Positions 169-51,093 of a stretch of 54,472 bases of DNA are shown piece after piece (positions within the stretch are counted from its first letter, which is position 1; every line of letters begins with the position of its first letter). Made by a program: the position numbers and the translations under genes. Below the pieces are notes generated by a model. That model was not told the DNA's origin and did not search any database. It saw only the letters and a list, made by a program, of their open reading frames with translations. The stretch is from Candidatus Nomurabacteria bacterium (GTDB lineage: Bacteria; Patescibacteriota; Minisyncoccia; Phycocordibacterales; UBA9973), in NCBI GenBank assembly GCA_943359485.1, contig CALRHR010000004.1, positions 1-54,472 of the forward strand. Direction: 5' to 3'.

Positions 169-1005
169 TCAAGGTAAGTGTGATCTTTTCGCTACAGTCA
201 AAACATTTTGAAGTAGCATCGCCACCGTCACTGGCCCAACGCCACCGGGTACGGGAGACACAAAGCCCGCTATATCTTTCACTGATTCTAGGTCAACATC
301 CCCCACTATGCCGGCATCCGATTCAGAAGTTCCCGCGTCTATCAGCACTGCCCCATCTTTTATTATTTCACCTGTAATATATTTTCCCTGTCCCATGCCA
401 GAAATTATAACATCAGCATTTTTTATAAGCTCGATTTTGTTTTTAGTTTTACTTGTAATTATTTCAGGATTTAACCCCCGAAATTTTAGTAATGCTGTTA
501 CCGGTTTCCCCACTAACATCCCCTGCCCCAAGACAACAATATTTTTATTCTTTAAATCCAAATTGACCGAATCAAGGAGCGCCATGCAGGCCAGCGCCGT
601 CGGAAAACCAATATTAATTTCACCATTATAAAATTTTTCGCTCGCCACCGTTCCCAGACAGTCCACATCCAGATCTGAATCAATAGCATCTAAAACAGCT
701 CGCCCGCCCAAATGCTCTGGCAATGGTAACTGAATTATTATCCCACACATATTTTTTATTTTATTTAAAACTTTTATTTCTTTGACCAATTCTTCAGTAG
801 TAATAGATGACGGAAAGTCCGCATGATGAAAATGTATCCCCACGCGTTCTGCCATCTGCGCCTTCATGCCCACATACTGCACACTGGCTGGATCCGTACC
901 CACCAAGACATCACAAAAGACTGGTTGAAAATTTAGTTTCATCACTTCCACTCTAAGTTCCTCTAATATCTCCTTTTGAATTTTTCTTCCATTAATTATG
1001 TTCAT
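169..1005 (-). CDS. folD: Bifunctional methylenetetrahydrofolate dehydrogenase/cyclohydrolase FolD
   Basis: The 278-residue protein has the normal FolD length. It interconverts 5,10-methylene-THF and 10-formyl-THF, the one-carbon donor used by PurH, which is also in this window. Visible signatures are the N-terminal catalytic region with VGTDPASVQYVGMKAQ (Tyr and Lys of the active site), IIIQLPLPEHL, the NADP-binding region VVLGQGMLVGKPV and the C-terminal PVPGGVGPVTVAMLLQN. The last residues (SHLP) run to a TGA close to the IS30 end and may have been altered by that insertion. A TAGGC-type repeat lies just upstream of the start. Confidence 0.95.
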   Translation of the reverse strand: MNIINGRKIQKEILEELRVEVMKLNFQPVFCDVLVGTDPASVQYVGMKAQMAERVGIHFHHADFPSSITTEELVKEIKVLNKIKNMCGIIIQLPLPEHLGGRAVLDAIDSDLDVDCLGTVASEKFYNGEINIGFPTALACMALLDSVNLDLKNKNIVVLGQGMLVGKPVTALLKFRGLNPEIITSKTKNKIELIKNADVIISGMGQGKYITGEIIKDGAVLIDAGTSESDAGIVGDVDLESVKDIAGFVSPVPGGVGPVTVAMLLQNVLTVAKRSHLP

Positions 1006-1007
1006 AA

Positions 1008-1088
1008 TTAGGTTCTAGGTTCTAGTGACTAGTTTCTAGGGATTTTAATTAATCTAGCCCCTAGCACCTAGCTACTAGCACCTAATTA
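1008..1088. repeat. TAGGCNN-type palindromic repeat between folD and rodA
   Basis: Degenerate copies of a CTAG-rich unit (TTCTAGGTTCTAGTGACTAG, then CCCTAGCACCTAGCTACTAG) form two complementary arms around a short AT spacer. It is the first of about a dozen loci of the same heptad-periodic family in the window. It fills the whole gap between the rodA stop and the folD start. Confidence 0.75.
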
Positions 1089-1090
1089 AC

Positions 1091-2239
1091 TCATGCTCCT
1101 AAAAATTCATTCCGCATATCATCTCGATGTGCACTCCTCGCATGCCTCCTCGAGCTCATTAAAATCCCCAAAGCAATAAATTCAGTCAGAAGATGTGAGC
1201 CACCGTAACTCATAAATGGTAATGGTATGCCGGTTATCGGCATCAGCCCCAGATTCATGCCGATATTTACGAGTATATGGCTCATGAAGAAAATAGCAAC
1301 CCCCATGCCAAAAAATATCTCAAAGTTATGTGCACCTAGGGTCGCCGAAGAGAGAATTCTCCAGATCACCGCCCCGTAAAGAAAAAGAACTAGAATTGAA
1401 CCAACAAAACCCCACTCTTCCGCAAAAGCAGCAAAGATAAAATCTGATTGGGGTTGTGGTAAAAATTTCAATCGCGATTGGGTGCCGAAACCCAGGCCCT
1501 TGCCGGTGATCTCGCCTGAACCCACCGCGACGGTAGATTGAAATGCATTATACCCACTACCCCTGATATCGGTGATTGGATTTATAAAATTAAGAATACG
1601 GGCTTTTTGGTAGGGCGCAAAAACGAAAAACCAAAGTGAAATAAAAATCAAAATCCCCGTGGTGAAAACTGCAAATAGATGCGTCTTAGAAATCCCAGAA
1701 ACAAGCACCATACCGAACCATATAAAGAATATAATCATCGCAGAACCAAAATCCGGCTGAAGTAAGACCAAGACCAGTGGTATAAATGCATAGAATAGTG
1801 AAATAAAGATATGTTTGACATCTCTGATTTCTACATGGCGACGAGAAAAATATTTAGCCAAAATTAAAATTAAGACAGGCTTCATGATGTCGACCGGCTG
1901 ATAAGAAAAAAAACCGAAATCAAACCAGCTCTTGGCTCCGTGAGACACATACCCTAAAACAAAAAGCAACAACAATACCAGGCAATTAATAAGATAAAGA
2001 AACACCAAGACATCAGTTCGTTTTAAAAAACGAAAATCTATAAAAGAAAAGACAAAAAAAATAACTGCACCAAATAATAGCCAAATGATCTGTTTACCAA
2101 AAAAATCTCCGGAATTCTCTACTGGCACAAAATTCTTCATGGTCACCAGACCGAAAAATATTATCGGCAACAAAAACAAAACAAGCACCCAATCTATCCC
2201 GCTGGAGATTTTTTTCGCAAAATTTTGTGATAATTCCAT
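1091..2239 (-). CDS. rodA: SEDS-family peptidoglycan glycosyltransferase, RodA type
   Basis: This 382-residue polytopic membrane protein has about ten hydrophobic segments. SEDS proteins polymerise lipid II glycan strands together with a class B PBP; RodA does so for sidewall growth. Diagnostic stretches are PYQKARILNFINP, GSGYNAFQSTVAVGSG, LPQPQSDFIFAAFAEEWG and PLPFMSYGGSHLL, which fit RodA better than FtsW. The ATG follows immediately after the TAA of the upstream gene, so the two are co-transcribed and probably translationally coupled. No PBP gene is in the window. Confidence 0.9.
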   Translation of the reverse strand: MELSQNFAKKISSGIDWVLVLFLLPIIFFGLVTMKNFVPVENSGDFFGKQIIWLLFGAVIFFVFSFIDFRFLKRTDVLVFLYLINCLVLLLLFVLGYVSHGAKSWFDFGFFSYQPVDIMKPVLILILAKYFSRRHVEIRDVKHIFISLFYAFIPLVLVLLQPDFGSAMIIFFIWFGMVLVSGISKTHLFAVFTTGILIFISLWFFVFAPYQKARILNFINPITDIRGSGYNAFQSTVAVGSGEITGKGLGFGTQSRLKFLPQPQSDFIFAAFAEEWGFVGSILVLFLYGAVIWRILSSATLGAHNFEIFFGMGVAIFFMSHILVNIGMNLGLMPITGIPLPFMSYGGSHLLTEFIALGILMSSRRHARSAHRDDMRNEFLGA

Positions 2240-3022
2240 TTACTTTAATTTAATTGAAAAAATGTTATATAAAGGGATGATTTCTTTGGTGAAAATTGGT
2301 GCCGAAAATGGCTCTGGCCAAGTAAACGAAACATCCTTCGCTCCTTCGGGAGATAGAGAATCCAGATAAGTACGGCTAGAAGAAACAGCATTATGGTTCT
2401 CATCATACAAAATCGCAATTACAATTAATTCAGGAATAGTAAAAAAGGAATTGTTTTTGATCGTAGCGGAGAGTGTTGGGCTCGTCATCTCGTCAAGGAG
2501 AAGAATATCCGAGACAAATACCTGAAGTTGATTCTTTTTTTCTTGTGAAATCGTTACCCACTTCGGAGTCTGAGTAAATTCAAATGTAGTATAAACAGGA
2601 ATAGAGTAACCCAGATCCAAAGCCGGTTCAAAAATTGCAAATTTCCCCGCTGGAGGAATAAAAGTACTACCTTCGCGTTTGCCTATGTAAATATTGTCTT
2701 TATCCGCAAAATGAAACCTGTAGTTTATTTTATTGACTGCAACATTTTTATTGTGATTCTCTAGATAAGCGACAGCATTGTACCGCCCAGGCAGCACTTG
2801 AAAAGATCTAGCCCAGAGCACTGAGACCTCATCTACTTGTGCAATACAAGCTTGAGCACAAGACCCACCGCAGTCCACGCCACTTTCATTGCCATTCTGT
2901 TTCCTGTCCGTACAAGTCGGCGCCCTATTCAAGCTCGGACGAATAATCAAAAACCCGAAAACTAAAACAAACGCAATGAGAACAAAAACATAAACCATCT
3001 GCCTTTTTAAAGCCCAAGTCAT
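2240..3022 (-). CDS. Membrane-anchored protein with a Cys-rich CTDRKQNGxESGVDCGG motif
   Basis: I chose the ATG at 3022 (260 aa) over a longer frame because the longer version would start inside the rRNA terminator and because a TATAAT lies 7 nt before this ATG. One N-terminal helix (MVYVFVLIAFVLVFGFLII) is followed by a Cys-rich segment, RAPTCTDRKQ ... SGVDCGGSC, and an extracytoplasmic region that looks like a beta-sandwich. The function is unknown. Its stop abuts the rodA start, suggesting an envelope-related role (inference). Confidence 0.7.
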   Translation of the reverse strand: MTWALKRQMVYVFVLIAFVLVFGFLIIRPSLNRAPTCTDRKQNGNESGVDCGGSCAQACIAQVDEVSVLWARSFQVLPGRYNAVAYLENHNKNVAVNKINYRFHFADKDNIYIGKREGSTFIPPAGKFAIFEPALDLGYSIPVYTTFEFTQTPKWVTISQEKKNQLQVFVSDILLLDEMTSPTLSATIKNNSFFTIPELIVIAILYDENHNAVSSSRTYLDSLSPEGAKDVSFTWPEPFSAPIFTKEIIPLYNIFSIKLK

Positions 3023-3041
3023 GAAAAATATTATAGCACAA

Positions 3042-3073
3042 AAATAAAAAACCCGTTCGTTAAACGAGAGCAA
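3042..3073 (-). terminator. Intrinsic terminator downstream of the 5S region
   Basis: On the minus strand CUCGUU can pair with AACGGG across a 5-nt loop, followed directly by UUUUUU. The site lies just past the last 5S-like helix and ends the rRNA transcript before the next gene starts. Confidence 0.6.
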
Positions 3074-3172
3074 ATTTCCTATTGAATACATTGTTCTGGC
3101 GCCTAGCTACTTTGTCACAGTCAAAGTCTACTGACTTTGCTCGCGACCCCGCCTCAGCACCAACGCGCTTCC

Positions 3173-3412
<240 letters not shown>

Positions 3413-3840
3413 TTGAGCACTGAAAGTGCGAAAGGTGTACAGCTCCTGTAAGGAGGAGATGTGCCCAAACAAAGCACCAGAACATTGTACTCGAAAATAC
3501 GAAGCAAATTAATATTTTATTAGTCGCGTAGGACCCACCCGTACTCGGGAAGGGTAAAGCGCGAATAAAATTTTAATTTGCGTAGTTTTTATTTCATGTG
3601 GTTCCCAAATTTCTTAACAGGAATCGAAACATTAGTACTTCTCAGCTGAACGCATTACTGCGCTTACACTTAAAGCCTATCAACCTGATCATCTCTCAGG
3701 GTTCTTAACGATTCCTAATCTTGAAGCTGGCTTCCCTCTTAGATGCTTTCAGAGGTTATCCATTCCCGACATAGCTACCGAGCAGTGCCCTTGGCAGGAC
3801 AGCTCGTACACCAGAGGTCAGTTCACTCCGGTCCTCTCGT

Positions 3841-4684
3841 CGCGTGATTAAACACAATTTTAAAACGTGTGTAAAATCCTCCCCTATTTCTAGGAGTGCA
3901 GACTATATCTTCACCTTTCTCGATATGAGTTAAGGTGTTGGCGTATTACAAGCATAAGCCTGTTTCTCAAAAAAACTTTTGAAAGAAACTTTCCAGCATT
4001 ATGCAAGTCCGTCTTGATTTAAAAAATCAAGAACAAGTCGTTACGGGGTCAAACCTAAAATTTTACGCAATTCACTTTTTGTTTTCTTCTTTTTAGTAAC
4101 ATAGTTTTCACTTTGAATTACTAGCATGATATCAACAAGTTTAGATAATTGCTTTTTTGTTAGCTTTTTAAACTTAGTACTAGATAATGCTTCGCACGCT
4201 TTTAAAAGCGCGTGAGCTTGAAGTTTTTTGAATCGAATATATGGTAATAAATTTTTAAGAATTTCTCTTATTTGTTCATATCCATTTATCCGCAGTTCGG
4301 TCATTCCGTCATTTCTGTTGGAAATATAGCCGATACCCAAAACTTCTTGTATCCAGTATAAAGTCTTTTTGTGCCGTGTATCCTGATAAAAACAAATTGT
4401 AGCCATTAAACGAATTGCTCGTTTGCTATCGCTTCGGCGTTTCAGCTGAAGCATTAGGCTACCATCGCCATCAAGAAAACCGGCAATATATGCTAACTCA
4501 ATTTTTTTAGATCGACTTCCCACGGTATTATCTTATCATATTTCTGGTCCTCAAGCGAATCATAATATCAAGGATCGAATGATAGTATAATTCTAAAACT
4601 AGAAACATTAATGAAGACTTCACCGTTATTAGCCACTTTTTCATCACAAATTTCTTCGTGAAGTAGCAAAGCCCTAAAGGGCCT
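3841..4684 (-). other. Group I intron in the 23S sarcin-ricin loop, with LAGLIDADG gene
   Basis: The exons join as CTCCTAGT|ACGAGAGG, restoring the sarcin-ricin loop (about E. coli position 2656). The intron follows a U and ends in G, as group I introns do. Near its 3' end the minus strand has GAAGATATAGTCTG, the typical P7/P3 core signature. It is 844 nt long and carries an open frame at 4041-4523. Splicing is required to rebuild the elongation-factor binding site of the ribosome. Confidence 0.85.
4041..4523 (-). CDS. LAGLIDADG homing endonuclease, intron-encoded
   Basis: The 160-residue protein carries one LAGLIDADG-type motif, ELAYIAGFLDGDGSLML, near the N-terminus, so it would act as a homodimer. 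Such enzymes cut the intronless 23S allele at the insertion site and promote intron homing; some also act as maturases. The frame is wholly inside the group I intron. The basic C-terminus (TKKKKTKSELRKILGL) fits DNA or RNA binding. A single-motif enzyme of 160 residues is normal for rRNA-intron endonucleases. Confidence 0.9.
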   Translation of the reverse strand: MGSRSKKIELAYIAGFLDGDGSLMLQLKRRSDSKRAIRLMATICFYQDTRHKKTLYWIQEVLGIGYISNRNDGMTELRINGYEQIREILKNLLPYIRFKKLQAHALLKACEALSSTKFKKLTKKQLSKLVDIMLVIQSENYVTKKKKTKSELRKILGLTP

Positions 4685-4751
4685 ACTAGGAGCAAATCTT
4701 CTCAAGAATCAACGAGTGCAGTAGATAGGAGACCAACCTGTCTCACGCATC

Positions 4752-4866
4752 TACATGCTAGGCTTTAGGCACTAGGCCTTAGGCTTTAGCAATTTCCATT
4801 ATTACTAATGGGATTGGACTGTGACTTTAACTAGGCTCTAGGCTTTTAGGCCATAGGCATTAGTTA
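4752..4866. repeat. TAGGCNN heptad repeat inside the L2593 intron (3' side)
   Basis: Successive heptads TAGGCTT, TAGGCAC, TAGGCCT and TAGGCTT are followed after a spacer by TAGGCTC, TAGGCTT, TAGGCCA and TAGGCAT. All lie within the intron near its 3' splice site. They face complementary GCCTA arms at 5142-5216 across the intron. Confidence 0.8.
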
Positions 4867-5141
4867 TCTAACATTCAGTCTCTACGGGTGAGTTTTGAAA
4901 AAACTCATGGTGAGTATTTTCGAACCACTCTTCCCTCGGCGTTGTCCTCGCGTGAGCTTTAGCTTTTACGCGATAGGATTTCTCCGATATAAGTTAGCTT
5001 CTCTTTATATATTTCTATACAAAGCCGCCGTGATCCCGTGATCGCAATACGATTTTACGGGATGGTTAATTTCGATTAAAACAGTAGTTCACTTTCGTTC
5101 ACTATTCCTCTGAGGGTTCAAACTGTCTCGAAGACAAGGCT

Positions 5142-5216
5142 TTAGCTGTTAGGCTTTAGGCTCTAGCAGAATTAAATGCTAATGCCTAGCGCCTAAGAAC
5201 CTAGTGCCTATCTCTT
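5142..5216. repeat. TAGGCNN heptad repeat inside the L2593 intron (5' side)
   Basis: Left-arm heptads (TAGCTGTTAGGCTTTAGGC) are followed by complementary units (TGCCTAGCGCCTAAGAACC) within 5 nt of the 5' splice site. The repeat lies inside excised RNA, so it should not affect the mature rRNA. Confidence 0.75.
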
Positions 5217-5883
5217 CAAAACGGTCTGAACCCAGCTCGCGTACCTTTTTAATTGGCGAACAGCCAAACGCTTGGCAGCTTCTCCACCGCCGCGCTAAGG
5301 TGAGCCGACATCGAGGTGCCGAACTCCGCCGTCGATATGAACTCTTGGGCGGAACTAGCCTGTTATCCCTAGAGTAGCTTTTATCCGTTAATCTCCCCCC
5401 GCATCTAATGCGAAAGGTCGGTTCACTATGTTCTGCTTTCGCACCTGCTTGGGATGTACCCCTTACAGTCAAGCACTCTTGTGCCATTACACTATCGGCA
5501 CGGTTTCCATTCGCGCCTAGAGTACCTTTAAACCCCTCCTTTACTTTTTAGGAGGGTACAGCCCCAGTAAAACTATCCACCATATACTGTCTCAATGCGT
5601 TTTTGCCACATTGGTTAGAACATGCCTTCGAAAAGAATGGTATTTCACTGACGAGTAGAATTCAACCGAAATCAAATCCATCAGACCTCTCCCATCTATG
5701 CTACGCAGTTAAAAAACATGCTCAATATAAAGTTATAGTAAAGCTTCTAGGGTCTTTTCGTCTAACTGCACTTAACCGGCATCTTCACCGGTATTGTATT
5801 TTCACCGAGCTGGTCCCCGAGACAGTTTTCCAGTCATTACACCATTCGTGCGCGTCGGAACTTACCCGACAAGGTATTTCGCT

Positions 5884-6097
5884 CTTCTATACCTAAGAAG
5901 GACTCTATCTTCATCCTGAGATTTTTTGCAAAATTTTAGGACGCTTGACGCTGGTCTCTCGTTAGCCAAGTTTTGACTGTCTGTACATTACTGCACAGCA
6001 GGTAGCATTCGAATCGTCTAATAATTTTTTAATTTAATTGTTTACCTTTTTCTTAACGGTCCCAGTCATTCCACGCGCAACTTGCGTTATGCGCAGA
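5884..6097 (-). other. Small group I intron in 23S at about position 1931
   Basis: The exons join as GGTCCTAAGGT|AGCGAAATACC, the L1931 site recognised by I-CeuI-type enzymes in other genomes. The 5' exon ends in U and the intron in G. The minus strand carries GATGAAGATAGAGTCC at 5898-5916, a P7 signature like that of the larger intron. At 214 nt and without an open frame it is close to the minimum for a group I ribozyme. Confidence 0.8.
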
Positions 6098-6132
<35 letters not shown>

Positions 6133-6287
6133 CAGGGCTTATATAGCTCACCATCTCATCTTGCGACAAAACAACGGCCATATTTGACCTTCTGGCATTG
6201 GTCAGGTGTCACCCCCTATACATCCTCTTGCGAGTTCGCAGGGAGCTGTGTTTTTGGTAAACAGTTGCCAGAAAAACTTTCGCTGCG

Positions 6288-6423
6288 CCCCGTGCATCAC
6301 GCTACGCGCGATGCAGGCAGTAGGCCTTAGGCGCTAGGCATTAGCAAAAATGCAATTCGCATTCGCTAGAGCCTAAAGCCTAGTTTCCTAGAGCCTGCAT
6401 CACATGCAATGTGATGCACGGGG
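6288..6423. repeat. Hairpin insert A in 23S with TAGGCNN repeats
   Basis: The outer arms CCCCGTGCATCAC and GTGATGCACGGGG close a stem inside domain IV/H63-like sequence of the 23S. Inside are a GCATCACAT/ATGTGATGC palindrome, heptad TAGGC units and complementary GCCTA units. Bases 6332-6417 are identical to 7968-8053. The site is a variable helix where intervening sequences are tolerated. The insert may be removed by RNase III-type cleavage or kept as an expansion helix. Confidence 0.85.
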
Positions 6424-44634: not shown

Positions 44635-44712
44635 AACCTCATCCCCTACCCCTTCTCCTGAAAGGCGAAGGGTTCACCCTCTCCTCTCCAGGAGAGGGCT
44701 GGGGTGAGGTTA
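44635..44712. repeat. G/C-rich double palindrome at the ileS stop codon
   Basis: AACCTCATCCCCTACCCC to GGGCTGGGGTGAGGTT is an inverted-repeat pair like DUF559 element 3 but with no gene inside: a non-autonomous copy. Its right end overlaps the ileS TAA stop. Confidence 0.82.
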
Positions 44713-47700
44713 ATTTACCATAAACCCATGCAGACTGGAAATTATTGGTTTTATAGATTCATTATTTATATCTTCTGGCTTTATTTTGCATTTGGCAAAA
44801 ATTTGTTTTTCGATTCCCTTGCAACAAGCAATCAGTTCTGCTCGTCCATCTTCGGAAAAGATATCCCGTCGGTTTTGATATCGTTTCTTTGCTTCTTCCA
44901 TTCTTTCTTCAAAAGACACGACACCGTGCGGGTCAACACGCCAGTCGGCATAATTCACTATTTTGTAGGCAATATTATTTCCGTTACAATTTTTACATGC
45001 TAAAGAAAAATCAACACTATCGACAATTTTTATTATCTCCTCAGGTAAACCAAGCTCTTTCATTATCAAAATGGTCGTTTTATGTGCATTAAATCCATAC
45101 TTATTTTCATATTCCAACTTTATACTTTCCCAATAATCCAAACCTTCTGGCTTGTTGAATTCCGGAAAGTATCCTAAGTCTGCTTTTATGATATTGCCCA
45201 TGTCGTGAAGCAAACACGCACCAATAATTTCTTCTTTATTTATTGGCTCATTAAAATTATTACAAATCAAAGATGCAACAGCCGCCACGCGGAGCATATG
45301 TTCCTGTAGATTTGGCATAATTTTATATTTTTTATATATCATCAGAACCGTCATCGGCATTTTGTCTTTCGATTTAAGTCCGAGTTTTTTTCTTTTATCC
45401 TGAAGTTCTCGCATAAATTCACGATACTCACCTTCGGCCCTGAGCGCTGGAGTAATCTCTGCATCGAGCAAAATTTCTGATTCTATTTTTTTGTTCTGCG
45501 TTACATCTTTTACATTCAGTTCATCTTTTATTAATTCGATATATTCTTTTCCTAAAACAAGATTTTTTACTTCTAACCTAGTGAGTGGTTGGCGTACTGG
45601 AATATTTACTTTCTGCCTTTCAGCATTTCCAGCCGTACAAATATCACGCACAATTTGCATATCTTTCAAAACCTCCGACCGAAGGTCCCGAGTAGAAACG
45701 AGGGGCCATTTTTCTAAGTGCACGCTCTCCGCATCATCTTTAGTTTTTAATTTCAACCAAATATCTTCTGCCGTAAATGGCGCAAATGGAGCCATTATTT
45801 TCGCTAAAGTTTTCAAGACAAAATACAAAGTTTGTCTGGCCCCGTAGTGAAATTGTTCTTCGGGGTTTACAGCTTCATCTTTGATTCTCTCGCGCGAGCG
45901 ACGCAGATACCATGTAGAAAGATCCCCGACAAAATCCCTAATAGCTCTAGTCGGCTCGAGCAATTTATAGTTATCCAGATTGTCTGTAGAAGTTTTTATT
46001 AATTCATCCAGTCTAGCTAAAATCCAAACATCTAGAATATTACTAGACTCAGTACCCCCTCCGCCTTTGGCACCTCCCCCTATGTAGGGGAAGGCCGGGT
46101 GGGGGTATTCTAAATCTTTATCTCTATAAAGCTCATAAAACGCCAGCACATTGTAGAGCAAACCGAAAACTTGCTGGTACAAAAGCGCTATAGTTTTTTC
46201 ATCAAAATTTTTCGATTCGCCCGGCTGGTTGATCGAGTACATCCACAGACGCAGAGTGTCCACGCCATATTTTTCTATCATCACCCAGGGATCAACAATA
46301 TTGCCAAGCGACTTGGACATTTTTTTACCATTCGCATCAAGTAAGTGCCCAAGGCAAATTACATTTTTGTAAGCTAACCCTTTACCCATTAAAATTCCAA
46401 CAGCGTGAAGTGTATAAAACCACCCGCGAGTTTGATCTATGGCTTCAGCAATAAAGTCAGCCGGATATAAAATTTCCTGAGATTTTTTATTTCCTACTCT
46501 ATACCAAGCTTGTGAAAGTTTGGGGTTAAATGGATAATGGTCTTGCGCGAAAGGCATACATCCAGAATCAAACCATACATCCATAACTTCCTTTGTACGA
46601 GTCAAAATTGAACCATCTTCATCAACCAATTCCAGATCGTCAATAAATGGGCGATGCAAGTCCACTTGACCGAAATAGTTTCTCGGTAGTGACAAAAAAT
46701 TGCATTGTAAGACTTGTGCATTTTGAATAAATGGATATTTATTTTTCAAATTTTCTGATTCTTCTTGTTCATTTAATGCTTCATGAGAAGAGAGGAGTAA
46801 GCGTAAAGGAAGCTCATGCGAAACAACTAAAATATTTTTATCTGAATATGTTTTTTCTAAATCACACATTACGCCAACCATTCTTTTTCTGATATCTTTA
46901 TAACTTTCATCTGAAGATTTTATAGCTCGGGCTTCCCGCAACTCCTCATCGATAAAAATTTCTTCTTTGGGAATTCCAAAAATTTCTGCCACAATTTCTG
47001 CAGTTTGTCTCGTCCTGGTAAAATTAGAAGAAATTATGATATCAGGTTTTCCCTCTAACTTTTTCGCTTGTAATTTGACCTGCTCTACCCCCTCACTAGT
47101 CAAGGCATCATTTTCCTCTCCGGGTTCGAAACTACCTACATTCTTCATATTTCCGACTGAACCCCCATGCCTCATGAGCAAATATTTATTGCCAGATTTT
47201 TTTACTAATTTTTTAATTTCTTCAATACTACCAAGTACCCGAAAAGTATTATTCTGCTGATTGTCATTTTTGACCCATACTGGTAGTGGCGTACCCCAAT
47301 ACCGCTCGCGAGAAATCGCCCAATCTTTGATGTCTTTCAGCCACTCACCAAAGCGTCCGTCACGAGTATATGCTGGTTCCCAATTTATTTTTTGGTTTTC
47401 ATTAATTAATTCTTTTTTTATTTTTGGATCGGACATTTTTATATACCAAGAATCACGCGCGTAATAAATAAGCGCGGTCTTACAACGCCAACAGTGCGGA
47501 TAAGAGTGTTGATAATTTTCTTTGGCGAAAAATAAATTTTTCTCGGTTAAATATTTGATGATATCAACATCGAGTGTGGGTTTGCCCTCTTCATTTTTTT
47601 CTTTCACAAATCTGCCTTCTAAGAATCCTGTGCCTTTTACAAATTTACCTTCAAGATTTACTGTGTGATGCTTCGGCAAGCCCACCTCGGTGCCCAACAC

Positions 47701-48726
47701 AAAGTCATCCTGCCCGTACATCACGGCTGTGTGCACTATGCCTGTGCCGTCTGTGGTTGTCACAAAGTTTGCTCCGTAAACCTTGTAAGCTTTTTCTAAT
47801 TTTGGTTTTTCACTCTCTGTTATAGTCTCTGCAAGAAATGGAAACAAGGGTTCGTATTGCATCCCGACCATTTCCTTACCCTTGTGTTCGGCTACAATTT
47901 CGTACGGGTCGGTAATAACAGACAAGCGCTCTTTGGCAAGAATCAAAATTTCATCTTTAACTTTTACTTCCACATAATCAATATCTTCCCCGACAGCCAA
48001 CGCCACATTCCCTGGCAAAGTCCATGGTGTGGTTGTCCAAGCGAGAAAATATGTACTCATATTTTCTCGTCCTGAGCTTATCGAAGGACTTTTCACTTCA
48101 AACTTCACATACACCGACAAATCTTTTACATCTTCGTATCCTTGCGCAAGCTCATGACTAGAGAGCGCCGTACCACACCTAGGACACCAAGGCACAACTT
48201 TATAGTCCTTATATAAAAGTTTTTGTTCATTTACTGTTTTAACAACATTCCAAACAGATTCAATATAGTCATTGCTATATGTAACATACGGATTTTCTAC
48301 ATCCACCCAATGTCCAATTCTTTCTGTAAATTTATGCCAGATATCAACATACTCCCAGACAGATTCTTTGCACTCTTTATTAAATTTTGCAATACCATAT
48401 TCTTCTATGGCTTTCTTGGAATTAAGTCCAAGCTTTTTTTCTACTTGAAGTTCTACGGGTAATCCATGTGTATCCCACCCTCTTTTACGACGAACATGAA
48501 AACCCCGCATCGTTTTATATCTAGGAAGAGCATCTTTAAATGATCCCGGTATCAAGTGGTGAATTCCTGGCCGGCCATTTGCTGTTGGCGGGCCATCATA
48601 AAATACAAACTCTTTCTCCCCCTCTCTTTCACTCAAAGTCTTTGCAAAAATTTTATTCTCGCGCCAAAATTCTAGAATACCCTCCTCGCGCATAGCAGCC
48701 TCACTTTTTTTATTTTCTTCTTGCAT
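44710..48726 (-). CDS. ileS: Isoleucyl-tRNA synthetase fused to histidine-phosphatase and HD domains
   Basis: The 1338-residue protein carries the class I HIGH-type motif as GRPGIHHLIPG (about 50), the editing domain (about 200-420), WGTPLPVW (about 480), and KMSKS as GKKMSKSLG (about 800). Two additions are unusual. Residues about 507-680 form a histidine-phosphatase domain (LLMRHGGSVGN, ISSNFTRTRQTAEIV, NILVVSHELPLRLLL) inserted between VLGSIEEIKKL and DLHRPFIDDL. Residues about 1130-1338 form an HD phosphohydrolase domain (EHMLRVAAVAS, ACLLHDMGN, YADWRVDP). A G/C-rich repeat adds GGGAKGGGGTES near 880. A T-box lies upstream. Confidence 0.92.
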   Translation of the reverse strand: MQEENKKSEAAMREEGILEFWRENKIFAKTLSEREGEKEFVFYDGPPTANGRPGIHHLIPGSFKDALPRYKTMRGFHVRRKRGWDTHGLPVELQVEKKLGLNSKKAIEEYGIAKFNKECKESVWEYVDIWHKFTERIGHWVDVENPYVTYSNDYIESVWNVVKTVNEQKLLYKDYKVVPWCPRCGTALSSHELAQGYEDVKDLSVYVKFEVKSPSISSGRENMSTYFLAWTTTPWTLPGNVALAVGEDIDYVEVKVKDEILILAKERLSVITDPYEIVAEHKGKEMVGMQYEPLFPFLAETITESEKPKLEKAYKVYGANFVTTTDGTGIVHTAVMYGQDDFVLGTEVGLPKHHTVNLEGKFVKGTGFLEGRFVKEKNEEGKPTLDVDIIKYLTEKNLFFAKENYQHSYPHCWRCKTALIYYARDSWYIKMSDPKIKKELINENQKINWEPAYTRDGRFGEWLKDIKDWAISRERYWGTPLPVWVKNDNQQNNTFRVLGSIEEIKKLVKKSGNKYLLMRHGGSVGNMKNVGSFEPGEENDALTSEGVEQVKLQAKKLEGKPDIIISSNFTRTRQTAEIVAEIFGIPKEEIFIDEELREARAIKSSDESYKDIRKRMVGVMCDLEKTYSDKNILVVSHELPLRLLLSSHEALNEQEESENLKNKYPFIQNAQVLQCNFLSLPRNYFGQVDLHRPFIDDLELVDEDGSILTRTKEVMDVWFDSGCMPFAQDHYPFNPKLSQAWYRVGNKKSQEILYPADFIAEAIDQTRGWFYTLHAVGILMGKGLAYKNVICLGHLLDANGKKMSKSLGNIVDPWVMIEKYGVDTLRLWMYSINQPGESKNFDEKTIALLYQQVFGLLYNVLAFYELYRDKDLEYPHPAFPYIGGGAKGGGGTESSNILDVWILARLDELIKTSTDNLDNYKLLEPTRAIRDFVGDLSTWYLRRSRERIKDEAVNPEEQFHYGARQTLYFVLKTLAKIMAPFAPFTAEDIWLKLKTKDDAESVHLEKWPLVSTRDLRSEVLKDMQIVRDICTAGNAERQKVNIPVRQPLTRLEVKNLVLGKEYIELIKDELNVKDVTQNKKIESEILLDAEITPALRAEGEYREFMRELQDKRKKLGLKSKDKMPMTVLMIYKKYKIMPNLQEHMLRVAAVASLICNNFNEPINKEEIIGACLLHDMGNIIKADLGYFPEFNKPEGLDYWESIKLEYENKYGFNAHKTTILIMKELGLPEEIIKIVDSVDFSLACKNCNGNNIAYKIVNYADWRVDPHGVVSFEERMEEAKKRYQNRRDIFSEDGRAELIACCKGIEKQIFAKCKIKPEDINNESIKPIISSLHGFMVN
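46066..46108. repeat. G/C-rich palindrome inserted in frame in ileS
   Basis: CCTTTGGCACCTCCCCCTAT and TAGGGGAAGGCCGGGTGGGG form a hairpin. It encodes YPHPAFPYIGGGAKGGG in the linker before the tRNA-binding region of IleRS. Confidence 0.78.
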
Positions 48727-48752: not shown

Positions 48753-48995
48753 AAAAAACTCGTCCCCATACAACAATTCTTAAAAAGAATATAGTATAAG
48801 GACGAGTCTCAAGCCCGTTTACGGTGAGCTTGTCGAACCGTGGTACCACCTTTATTGCTTCTCATTTATTGGGTTCTATTTTATCACGCCATAACCTTAG
48901 CGACGGCGGACATTTCTTCCCAAAGCTCTGGGCCTTTCAGGCTCACGAAGAGGTGATAACCTCTTCAACGCTTTATGTAATCTTAACATAAGATA
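48753..48995 (-). promoter_or_regulatory. T-box riboswitch upstream of ileS
   Basis: The minus strand contains the T-box core AAAGGTGGTACCACGG (about 48839-48853), then a terminator stem GACTCGTCC/GGACGAGTTTTTT (48753-48808). The upstream part has hairpins GAAGAGGTTATCACCTCTTC (AUC is a candidate Ile specifier), GCCTGAAAGGC and CCCAGAGCTTTGGG. Uncharged tRNA-Ile would stabilise the antiterminator and allow ileS expression. Stem I seems short, so the specifier call is tentative. Confidence 0.85.
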
Positions 48996-49317: not shown

Positions 49318-51057
49318 TTACATCCTCTCCGGCACTTCAATACCAAGCAAATATAAACCTTTTTTCATCACAAAAGAAAAAGCGAAGGTCAGAGCAACTT
49401 TATAGGAAGAAGTAATGTCCTTTTTGTCTACAATAATTGTATTTCCATAAAAGCTGTTGTAACTGCGCGCGAGTTCTATTAAATAAGTCGCAATGTAGTG
49501 TGGTTCGTATTCCGATGCTGCCCTTAAAATAATTTCTGGAAATTTATATAGTAATTTTTCTACTTCGAAAATTTCTGGCGGAAAAGCGTGCGGGTCCGGC
49601 AAGATGTCTTCTTTTTTCGCTTTCTCTATCACCGAATTTGCCCGTGCGTATGAATATTGCAAGTACGGCCCCGAGTCTCCTTCAAAGGAAATTGATTTTT
49701 CAAAATCAAAGGCGATATCCCCACCAGTCGACTGTTTAAGAATAGAATATTTCACTGCCGCCACACCAACATGCTGTGCAACTTTTTCTTTCTTTTCTTC
49801 ATCCCAATCGTGGTCTTTAATTTTCTCCGTTACCAACGCAATAGTATCGCGAATCAGTGACTCGCCGGTGATAACATTTCCTTTTCGAGAAGACATCTTG
49901 CCAGAGGCAAGTCGCATCATTCCGTGGGTAATGTGCTTCATTTTTGATTCATATTCCGGATGAATCAGAGAAATAGATTTGGCAACGACTTTCATATATT
50001 CCATCTGTTCATTAGCTGTAACCACAATAGAAAGATCCATATCTGGCACGGTTTTGAATTTTTCTTCTGTTAGCCCCAATTCTTTCGTCTCATATGTAGG
50101 CAAACCCTGTGAAGTAATAAAAACTCTAGTGTGAAGCTTGGAATCATGTTTTTCCGCTTTAAACACCACGGCGCCATCAGATTCTTCAAAAATCCTTCCG
50201 CCATCAGGACCTGCGGCTTTACCGATGTTTGTTCGAACGATTTCTTCACCGATCGGTGCCATTTGACTCTCTAAAAAATAGAACTCGAATTTCGTTCCGA
50301 GAATTTTATATAAATCTTCAAAAGCTTCCATTGTCACCTTAAAACCCCAGTCATATATTTCATTTATTTTTTCGTCACTTTTGTCGTAAAGTTTTTTATT
50401 TATTTCATCTATTTCCTTTTTTGCTTTTTCATCAGTTTCATATAACCCCGCGCCCTCTGAATAAGCCTTGCCGATATTTTCTGATTGTGAAAATACAGAG
50501 CCAGATTTTTCCTGGAATTTCGAATTATTTAAAAGACCATAAATTGCTTTTGCCACATGAAGACCAATATCACCTTGATAATTTGCGCGAAAAACACTTA
50601 CACCAGAATGCTCTAAAATCCTAGCCACAGATTCACCTATAGCGTTGGTCATCAAGTGACCAATATGAAAAGGCTTGAAAGGATTTGGGTCTGTATATTC
50701 CACCATTATTTTCTTGCCTTTTAATGCGTCATTTCCCCCGACACCATCTCCTTCATTTAAAATTTCCTCCACACTTCTTGAGAAAAATTTGCGAGAAAGG
50801 TGCAAGTTTATGAAGCCAAAACCAGCGACTTCCATTTTTTCTATATTGTTATCGAGATTTAGTCTCAACATTTCAGTAATTATCTTTTCCGCTAGCTCTT
50901 TTGGATTAGCTTTAATACTTTTTGCTACAGCCATAGCCACATTTGTAGAATAATCTCCCCTATTCAAATCCGCAGGGTGTTCAACTACAATTTCACTTAC
51001 CTCTATGTTGAGATTTTTAAGCGCATCTGTAATTAATTGTTTAATTTTGTTTTGCAT
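49318..51057 (-). CDS. argS: Arginyl-tRNA synthetase
   Basis: The start at 51057 gives 579 residues; ATG at 51075 is also possible. It has the N-terminal additional domain, the HIGH motif in NPFKPFHIGHLMTNAIG, the RGDI-like FRANYQGDIGLHVAK, KMSK-like GKMSSRKGNVI and the DALR anticodon domain at the C-terminus (SYNSFYGNTIIVDK). It makes Arg-tRNA. Confidence 0.95.
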   Translation of the reverse strand: MQNKIKQLITDALKNLNIEVSEIVVEHPADLNRGDYSTNVAMAVAKSIKANPKELAEKIITEMLRLNLDNNIEKMEVAGFGFINLHLSRKFFSRSVEEILNEGDGVGGNDALKGKKIMVEYTDPNPFKPFHIGHLMTNAIGESVARILEHSGVSVFRANYQGDIGLHVAKAIYGLLNNSKFQEKSGSVFSQSENIGKAYSEGAGLYETDEKAKKEIDEINKKLYDKSDEKINEIYDWGFKVTMEAFEDLYKILGTKFEFYFLESQMAPIGEEIVRTNIGKAAGPDGGRIFEESDGAVVFKAEKHDSKLHTRVFITSQGLPTYETKELGLTEEKFKTVPDMDLSIVVTANEQMEYMKVVAKSISLIHPEYESKMKHITHGMMRLASGKMSSRKGNVITGESLIRDTIALVTEKIKDHDWDEEKKEKVAQHVGVAAVKYSILKQSTGGDIAFDFEKSISFEGDSGPYLQYSYARANSVIEKAKKEDILPDPHAFPPEIFEVEKLLYKFPEIILRAASEYEPHYIATYLIELARSYNSFYGNTIIVDKKDITSSYKVALTFAFSFVMKKGLYLLGIEVPERM

Positions 51058-51093
51058 TTGATTTAACAAAATCATCCCGAGCTTTACGAGGGA

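Follow-up and report, generated by a model that had tools for sequence, protein, structure and literature searches.

Why a bacterium with a 713-kb genome (99.8% complete) should build a histidine phosphatase and an HD domain into its isoleucyl-tRNA synthetase (IleRS) is the question raised by the ileS gene of a Candidatus Nomurabacteria bacterium (assembly GCA_943359485.1, contig CALRHR010000004.1). The gene lies on the minus strand of the 54,472-nucleotide stretch analyzed here, hereafter the window. An initial annotation, made from the sequence alone, had described an open reading frame (ORF) of 1338 residues, without giving its strand, and had proposed that the two domains could couple isoleucine charging to signaling by acting on (p)ppGpp-like nucleotides or aminoacyl-adenylate by-products. 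The architecture is confirmed below. In most of the class Minisyncoccia, IleRS with the phosphatase insert is the standard form, and the insert has a history separate from that of the synthetase around it; as to function, we tentatively favor local clean-up of phosphorylated by-products over signaling.

The synthetase body is that of a type 2 IleRS (IleRS2). Pfam matches along the protein are to tRNA-synt_1, His_Phos_1, Anticodon_1, part of DUF5915, and HD; the NCBIfam equivalog model for isoleucine–tRNA ligase (TIGR00392) scores 857 bits against a cut-off of 621; and the best fold match of the body, with the top Foldseek hits to this enzyme, is Priestia megaterium IleRS2 (8c8v, E 4e-85). Residues 1–1128 were modeled by AlphaFold at a mean predicted local distance difference test (pLDDT) score of 88. 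The body retains the KMSKS motif and, instead of the HxGH class I signature, the swapped form GxHH, which has been described for some IleRS2 and linked to mupirocin hyper-resistance (PMC10485003); both GxHH and HxGH bodies are found within the genus. The window protein shares its synthetase body, CP1 editing, CP2, and anticodon regions with the P. megaterium enzyme, which has no phosphatase in CP2. A complete C-terminal tRNA-binding domain, usual though not essential in IleRS, is present in P. megaterium, whereas in the window the DUF5915 match covers profile positions 74–144 of 195 only and the last part of the domain is replaced by HD. The synthetase may well still charge tRNA-Ile, and this forms part of the explanation that we provisionally prefer.

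The inserted domain is a branch 1 histidine phosphatase situated in CP2 between the flanks RYWGTPLPVW..GSIEEI and DLHRPFID. In relatives, the CP2 zinc ribbon consists of two CxxC halves with the insertion point between them; these cysteines have been lost in the window IleRS. The Pfam match to His_Phos_1 (E 3.1e-19; 69.8 bits against a cut-off of 21.7) begins at residue 516, and the alpha/beta fold is modeled confidently, with pLDDT means of about 74–96 per ten residues. Besides the RHG motif, the insert retains a second arginine (Arg571), the acid glutamate (Glu598), and the second histidine (His637, within the VVSHELPL segment singled out in the initial annotation), completing the five-residue catalytic set. 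Its nearest solved relatives in a PDB profile search (E 5e-27) are the broad-specificity PhoE of Geobacillus (1ebb, 1h2e), phosphoserine phosphatase 1, and CobC. These enzymes, which act on phosphomonoesters, share the RHG motif, the catalytic R/E/H residues, and the alpha-beta fold with the insert; unlike it, they are free-standing, and the window copy lacks a segment of ~30 residues that follows Glu598 (LRE motif) in most relatives. This deletion is common to the window and one relative (L015), and a similar one occurs in another (L006). Judging from its residues and predicted fold, the insert is a complete and apparently working phosphatase.

The search for fused phosphatases took in 287 sampled genomes; the class sample holds 142 genomes, and ~136 represent the rest of the phylum. 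Loci matching the sampled genomes carry the names Nomura-, Wolfe-, Yanofsky-, and Peregrinibacteria. The insert was present in the IleRS of 96 of the 142 class genomes, and about 13 further IleRS with it were found in the rest of the phylum. All five catalytic residues (R, H, R, E, H) are intact in 86 of 88 IleRS inserts examined, at overall identities of 30–45%; a few inserts (L042, L121) have a lost residue or are broken. The HD fusion likewise recurs, in 10 of 80 genomes of the genus. A frameshift or misassembly as the origin of either fusion was rejected, as occurrence of the same architecture in independent genomes excludes both chance and assembly artifact. Outside the phylum, no phosphatase was found within the synthetase in about 60 other IleRS loci of the named collection. 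One contig labeled Spirochaetia (L106) does contain the insert, yet its phosphatase groups with those of Patescibacteria, and the contig is probably misbinned. In Urinicoccus (Bacillota; L173, 7777–8382, plus strand), a histidine phosphatase ORF starts within 10 nucleotides of the end of the ileS frame, and the two genes may have been paired independently there.

Some lineages that lack the insert have its nearest homolog as a gene of its own (181–209 amino acids), placed directly upstream of ileS; it overlaps or abuts ileS in some loci (L065–L069, L071) and lies near it in others (L081, L082, L175). The usual gene order where the phosphatase is separate is argS-phos-ileS; in the window, argS still lies beside ileS, and the phosphatase is now inside it. 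Inserted and adjacent forms from the class group together in the phosphatase tree (88 rows, support 84). Histidine phosphatases have also entered the homologous CP2 position of valyl-tRNA synthetase (ValRS) in four loci (L076, L077, L083, L084); a second, tandem copy is present in four IleRS (L073, L074, L117, L120); and one IleRS (L075) carries both a GNAT acetyltransferase and a histidine phosphatase, at a site other than CP2. The phosphatases of the ValRS, of the tandem copies, and of the L075 site are related to the inserts but fall outside the main insert clade. The NCBIfam family ileS_w_GNAT (NF040702) is likewise an IleRS with a built-in enzyme domain, though with GNAT and not a phosphatase; the window protein scores 322 bits against its cut-off of 1999. 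Among the fused phosphatase matches listed for the 287 genomes, the partners are IleRS and ValRS, apart from PGDH and pyruvate kinase fusions.

Comparisons within the genus show that insert and body have evolved separately. Two IleRS bodies occur there, about 46% identical in their N-terminal half; by signature, type A, to which the window belongs, is mostly GxHH and type B mostly HxGH. The window and L015 share inserts that are 66% identical on bodies that are 46 and 52% identical; the corresponding values are 71% (47, 54%) for L010 and L051, 72% (46, 54%) for L007 and L023, and 62% (47, 57%) for L012 and L018. Inserts on the same body type, among the pairs compared, are merely 33–44% identical, and sequence identity steps up at the borders of the insert domain. 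Approximately unbiased (AU) tests on the body data reject the clades window + L015, L010 + L051, and L007 + L023, and on the insert data reject the type B set as a clade; p ranges from 3e-4 to far lower, values that are indicative because the groups were chosen after the identities had been seen, and the likelihood differences exceed 500 units. The body tree has nine or more changes of insert state at well-supported branches.

Host relatedness was considered as a cause of the insert shared by the window pair and was rejected: FtsK, used as a control protein, is 67–87% identical across the genus (mean 76.7) and 76.9% identical between the two genomes concerned (G000, G013), so that close relatedness does not explain the shared insert and the two hosts are probably not sisters. 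Two other pairs are close relatives by FtsK (G011–G019, 84.2%; G028–G022, 84.7%), and there the exchange may have concerned the body rather than the insert, with the phosphatase staying in place. Whichever part was exchanged, the phosphatase cassette forms an evolutionary unit of its own. A tie between the insert and the GxHH motif of mupirocin resistance was also rejected, as inserts occur on 37 GxHH and 33 HxGH bodies.

The C-terminal domain has a narrower distribution. It matches Pfam HD at residues 1142–1183 (E 1.2e-5, over the cut-off), its metal ligands His1143, His1174-Asp1175, and Asp1261 are invariant in 14 relatives and form the H...HD...D pattern of the superfamily, and it was modeled alone at a pLDDT of 92.6 (AlphaFold). 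Domain search and structure prediction, the checks suggested with the initial annotation, recovered both the phosphatase and the HD fold. The HD profile is found in 28 of the 80 genus genomes (27 strongly), including the 10 in which it is fused, and the family is nearly absent elsewhere in the class (2 of 142 genomes at family strength); as a separate gene, it often follows ileS directly (L009, L052, L053, L089, L090). One identical junction is present in all seven fused proteins examined: the last ~50 IleRS residues (...ISLVFET...KVKIEK) are lost, HD starts at IYKKYKI, and the segment just before the junction reads REFMR where others have REL.R. Although the body tree forces at least six changes of fusion state, many separate fusions are not preferred, because junction and REFMR are common to all seven; the simplest reading of these sequences is a single HD fusion that recombination then carried into both types of body. 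The HD module is a genus-level accessory, possibly derived from a gene downstream of ileS.

The (p)ppGpp-like signaling proposed in the initial annotation finds no support in the HD domain, which is itself absent in most relatives. SpoT-type (p)ppGpp hydrolases carry an HDxxED motif, whereas the window has HDMGNI and its relatives HDM(G/A)N. A search of the HD profile against PDB sequences found no RelA/SpoT relative, and alarmone hydrolases match weakly by fold (E 0.3–0.4; a small alarmone hydrolase at E 0.29). The closest PDB sequences are the HDDC2/YfbR 5'-nucleotidases (E 0.004–0.4), the match being limited to the N-terminal metal-site part; VIA-align returns generic HD/PDE matches to this helical domain (Z 9–10). 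A separate homolog (L009) matched no NCBIfam family at E 1e-5, the Ap4A hydrolase YqeK included, and a YqeK-like structure (2ogi) resembles the domain weakly by fold.

Upstream of ileS, the window contains a T-box leader with an antiterminator (AGGTGGTACCACG), a terminator, and the usual position before an aminoacyl-tRNA synthetase gene. The match is stronger in relatives (up to 75.2 bits, E 1.6e-14), and since the Rfam gathering score of 93 is reached neither in the window nor in relatives, the leader of this genus has probably gone unannotated; no paper in the open-access literature was found that pairs T-boxes with this bacterial group. Stem I is very short in the genus (window, L006, L008, L015, L035, L060, L091, L093, L102). 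A repeat-like insertion, TTCGAYAAGCTCA, occurs on the minus strand both in the ileS coding region (48073–48085) and in the leader (48825–48837), and a low-confidence, repeat-like PHPAFPYIGGGAKGGGGTE stretch lies in the IleRS protein (~46060–46120, minus strand). Elsewhere in the genome, a conserved stand-alone histidine phosphatase paralog (G000:C7:33552-34058; L190) has VHG (ITYFVHGTTTDN) in place of RHG; its relatives include L191, L195, and L202, and VHG occurs in 8 of 23 stand-alone genes examined. Other Patescibacteria carry phosphoglycerate mutase-like histidine phosphatase fusions (L078, 1728–3179; L079, 1488–3143; L080, 1764–3395), in which the partners are 2-hydroxyacid dehydrogenase and pyruvate kinase.

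Table. Features of the window and of compared loci (coordinates are those of the window or of the locus named)
Feature	Coordinates	Strand	Basis
ileS (1338 aa): type 2 IleRS with inserted histidine phosphatase and an HD domain at the C-terminus	44710..48726	-	ORF, Pfam, NCBIfam, fold match
Swapped class I signature GIHH (GxHH, not HxGH), residues 54-57	48556..48567	-	Sequence
KMSKS motif, residues 802-806	46309..46323	-	Sequence; K802, K805 invariant
Histidine phosphatase (branch 1) insert, residues ~513-683, CP2 region	46678..47190	-	Pfam, alignment, model, PDB profile matches
RHG catalytic motif, Arg519-His520-Gly521	47164..47172	-	Alignment
HD phosphohydrolase domain (residues 1129-1338), in place of the final ~50 residues of the IleRS C-terminus	44713..45342	-	Pfam, alignment, model
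HD dyad, His1174-Asp1175	45202..45207	-	Alignment
T-box leader of ileS	48795..48977	-	Rfam RF00230, 23.7 bits, E 0.0036
Terminator-like hairpin GACTCGTCC..GGGGACGAGTTTTTT, overlapping T-box antiterminator	48753..48808	-	Sequence, Rfam match
argS, upstream neighbor of ileS	49318..51075	-	ORF list, locus comparison
L076: ValRS with phosphatase insert (two in tandem)	1375-5160	-	
L077: ValRS with phosphatase insert	1478-4246	-	
L083: ValRS with phosphatase insert	917-4234	-	
L084: ValRS with phosphatase insert	1026-3992	-	
L075: IleRS with GNAT acetyltransferase (641-739) and histidine phosphatase (895-1043)	2138-6415	-	

We tentatively propose that both domains are autonomous phosphohydrolase cassettes tethered to isoleucine (and valine) charging, probably for the clean-up of nucleotides or by-products. 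A PhoE/CobC-type phosphomonoesterase, homologous to the gene found elsewhere beside ileS, would have been built into the tip of the CP2 zinc ribbon, and the final portion of the C-terminal domain would have given way to a metal-dependent HD phosphohydrolase once encoded downstream. Both enzymes would be linked to isoleucine charging by tethering or by co-expression, and their targets would be small phosphorylated molecules in the vicinity of the synthetase. The phosphatase would hydrolyze a small phosphomonoester close to its source, most probably a nucleotide or an aminoacyl-adenylate by-product, and would, like the YqeK domain attached to NadD, serve damage control or clean-up. The mycoplasma NadD-YqeK pair, in which an HD phosphohydrolase is fused or clustered with an adenylyl-transfer enzyme and exerts proofreading or damage control on its partner's aberrant products (PMC9426524), is the closest functional precedent, although the synthetase here is a different one and the window HD family is not recognized as YqeK by NCBIfam. 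The free movement of the phosphatase between IleRS bodies suggests that it needs co-localization or co-expression with charging and no fitted interface, and argues against a finely fitted channel. The coupling of phosphatase chemistry to isoleucine charging, as distinct from signaling, is thus plausible given the recurrent IleRS and ValRS inserts and the adjacent genes. Several observations weigh against this proposal. Roughly a quarter of the 142 class genomes have neither the insert nor a phosphatase beside ileS, and its absence without replacement in many relatives indicates that the link is dispensable; in L081 and L082, the T-box lies between phos and ileS, placing the two genes outside the control of the same T-box; the independence of insert from body also fits a phosphatase without a role in charging; and the several captures derive from different phosphatase lineages, so that substrates may differ. 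A broader possibility, which we hold only loosely, is that Patescibacteria at large possess a phosphatase module reserved for IleRS and ValRS, which has been repeatedly captured, kept catalytically intact, and exchanged as a cassette between synthetase lineages.

The strongest rival, somewhat unlikely in our judgment, is that a general PhoE/CobC-like phosphatase beside ileS became embedded in a permissive loop, where it does an unrelated job and shares only expression with the synthetase. Its interchangeability with the adjacent gene, its independent history, its many gains or losses, and its position at the zinc-ribbon tip all agree with such embedding; however, the ValRS, the other IleRS site, and the tandem copies carry phosphatases from outside the main clade, which no single neighbor's accident would produce, and the listed fusions are to IleRS and ValRS, save those to PGDH and pyruvate kinase. 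Repair of tRNA ends, with the domains stripping phosphates or pyrophosphates off the CCA end of tRNA-Ile that is damaged or has been modified by toxins, and the synthetase as a tRNA-binding platform, is improbable. HD domains do act on tRNA ends in the CCA-adding enzyme and small alarmone hydrolases, and both domains here sit on a tRNA-binding enzyme, with HD replacing the end of its C-terminal domain; against this, neither has a tRNA-binding extension, free-standing homologs exist, and HD is closest by sequence to the HDDC2/YfbR nucleotidases. The ~30 residues lost after the catalytic glutamate and the damaged inserts of L042 and L121 might indicate a non-catalytic structural or regulatory remnant, but conservation of the five catalytic residues amid so much divergence makes this quite doubtful. 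There is very little likelihood that the insert is a local pyrophosphatase (PPase) pulling aminoacylation in genomes without a soluble enzyme: soluble PPase (PF00719) exceeds its cut-off in just 28 of 142 class genomes, yet it is present in 17 of 96 genomes with the insert versus 11 of 46 without (Fisher p 0.38, no association) and in the window's own genome, and histidine phosphatases of this type are monoesterases. Action on (p)ppGpp-like alarmones, coupling charging to a stringent-type response, would suit a synthetase whose T-box leader makes expression responsive to isoleucine starvation; the motif, the sequence searches, the scarcity of HD in the class, and the monoester chemistry of the phosphatase family render it highly improbable.

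Synthetases with extra domains are already known. Our search of the open-access literature turned up no IleRS or ValRS described as bearing a phosphatase, and nothing relevant on phosphatase or acetyltransferase fusions to IleRS. The initial claim that the three-domain enzyme is undescribed holds to that extent, but the protein is no one-off: its insert is standard in most of the class, and its HD domain is a separate accessory. An intact phosphatase that most IleRS of a large bacterial class carry in their catalytic half has, as far as our search reached, gone undescribed. Its movement between synthetase bodies in one genus gives independent histories to parts of a single essential protein. 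With its HD fusion, T-box control, and GxHH signature, the ileS of this genus offers a compact model of core-enzyme remodeling in Patescibacteria. The recurrence of the phosphatase, its swapping between synthetases, and its neighbor-gene form point to a so far undescribed coupling of isoleucine charging with a reaction that removes phosphate, and raise the defined question of which phosphate is removed and what makes IleRS and ValRS the place for it. If the module is indeed dedicated to these two enzymes, it would represent an unrecognized enzymatic step tied to branched-chain aminoacylation.

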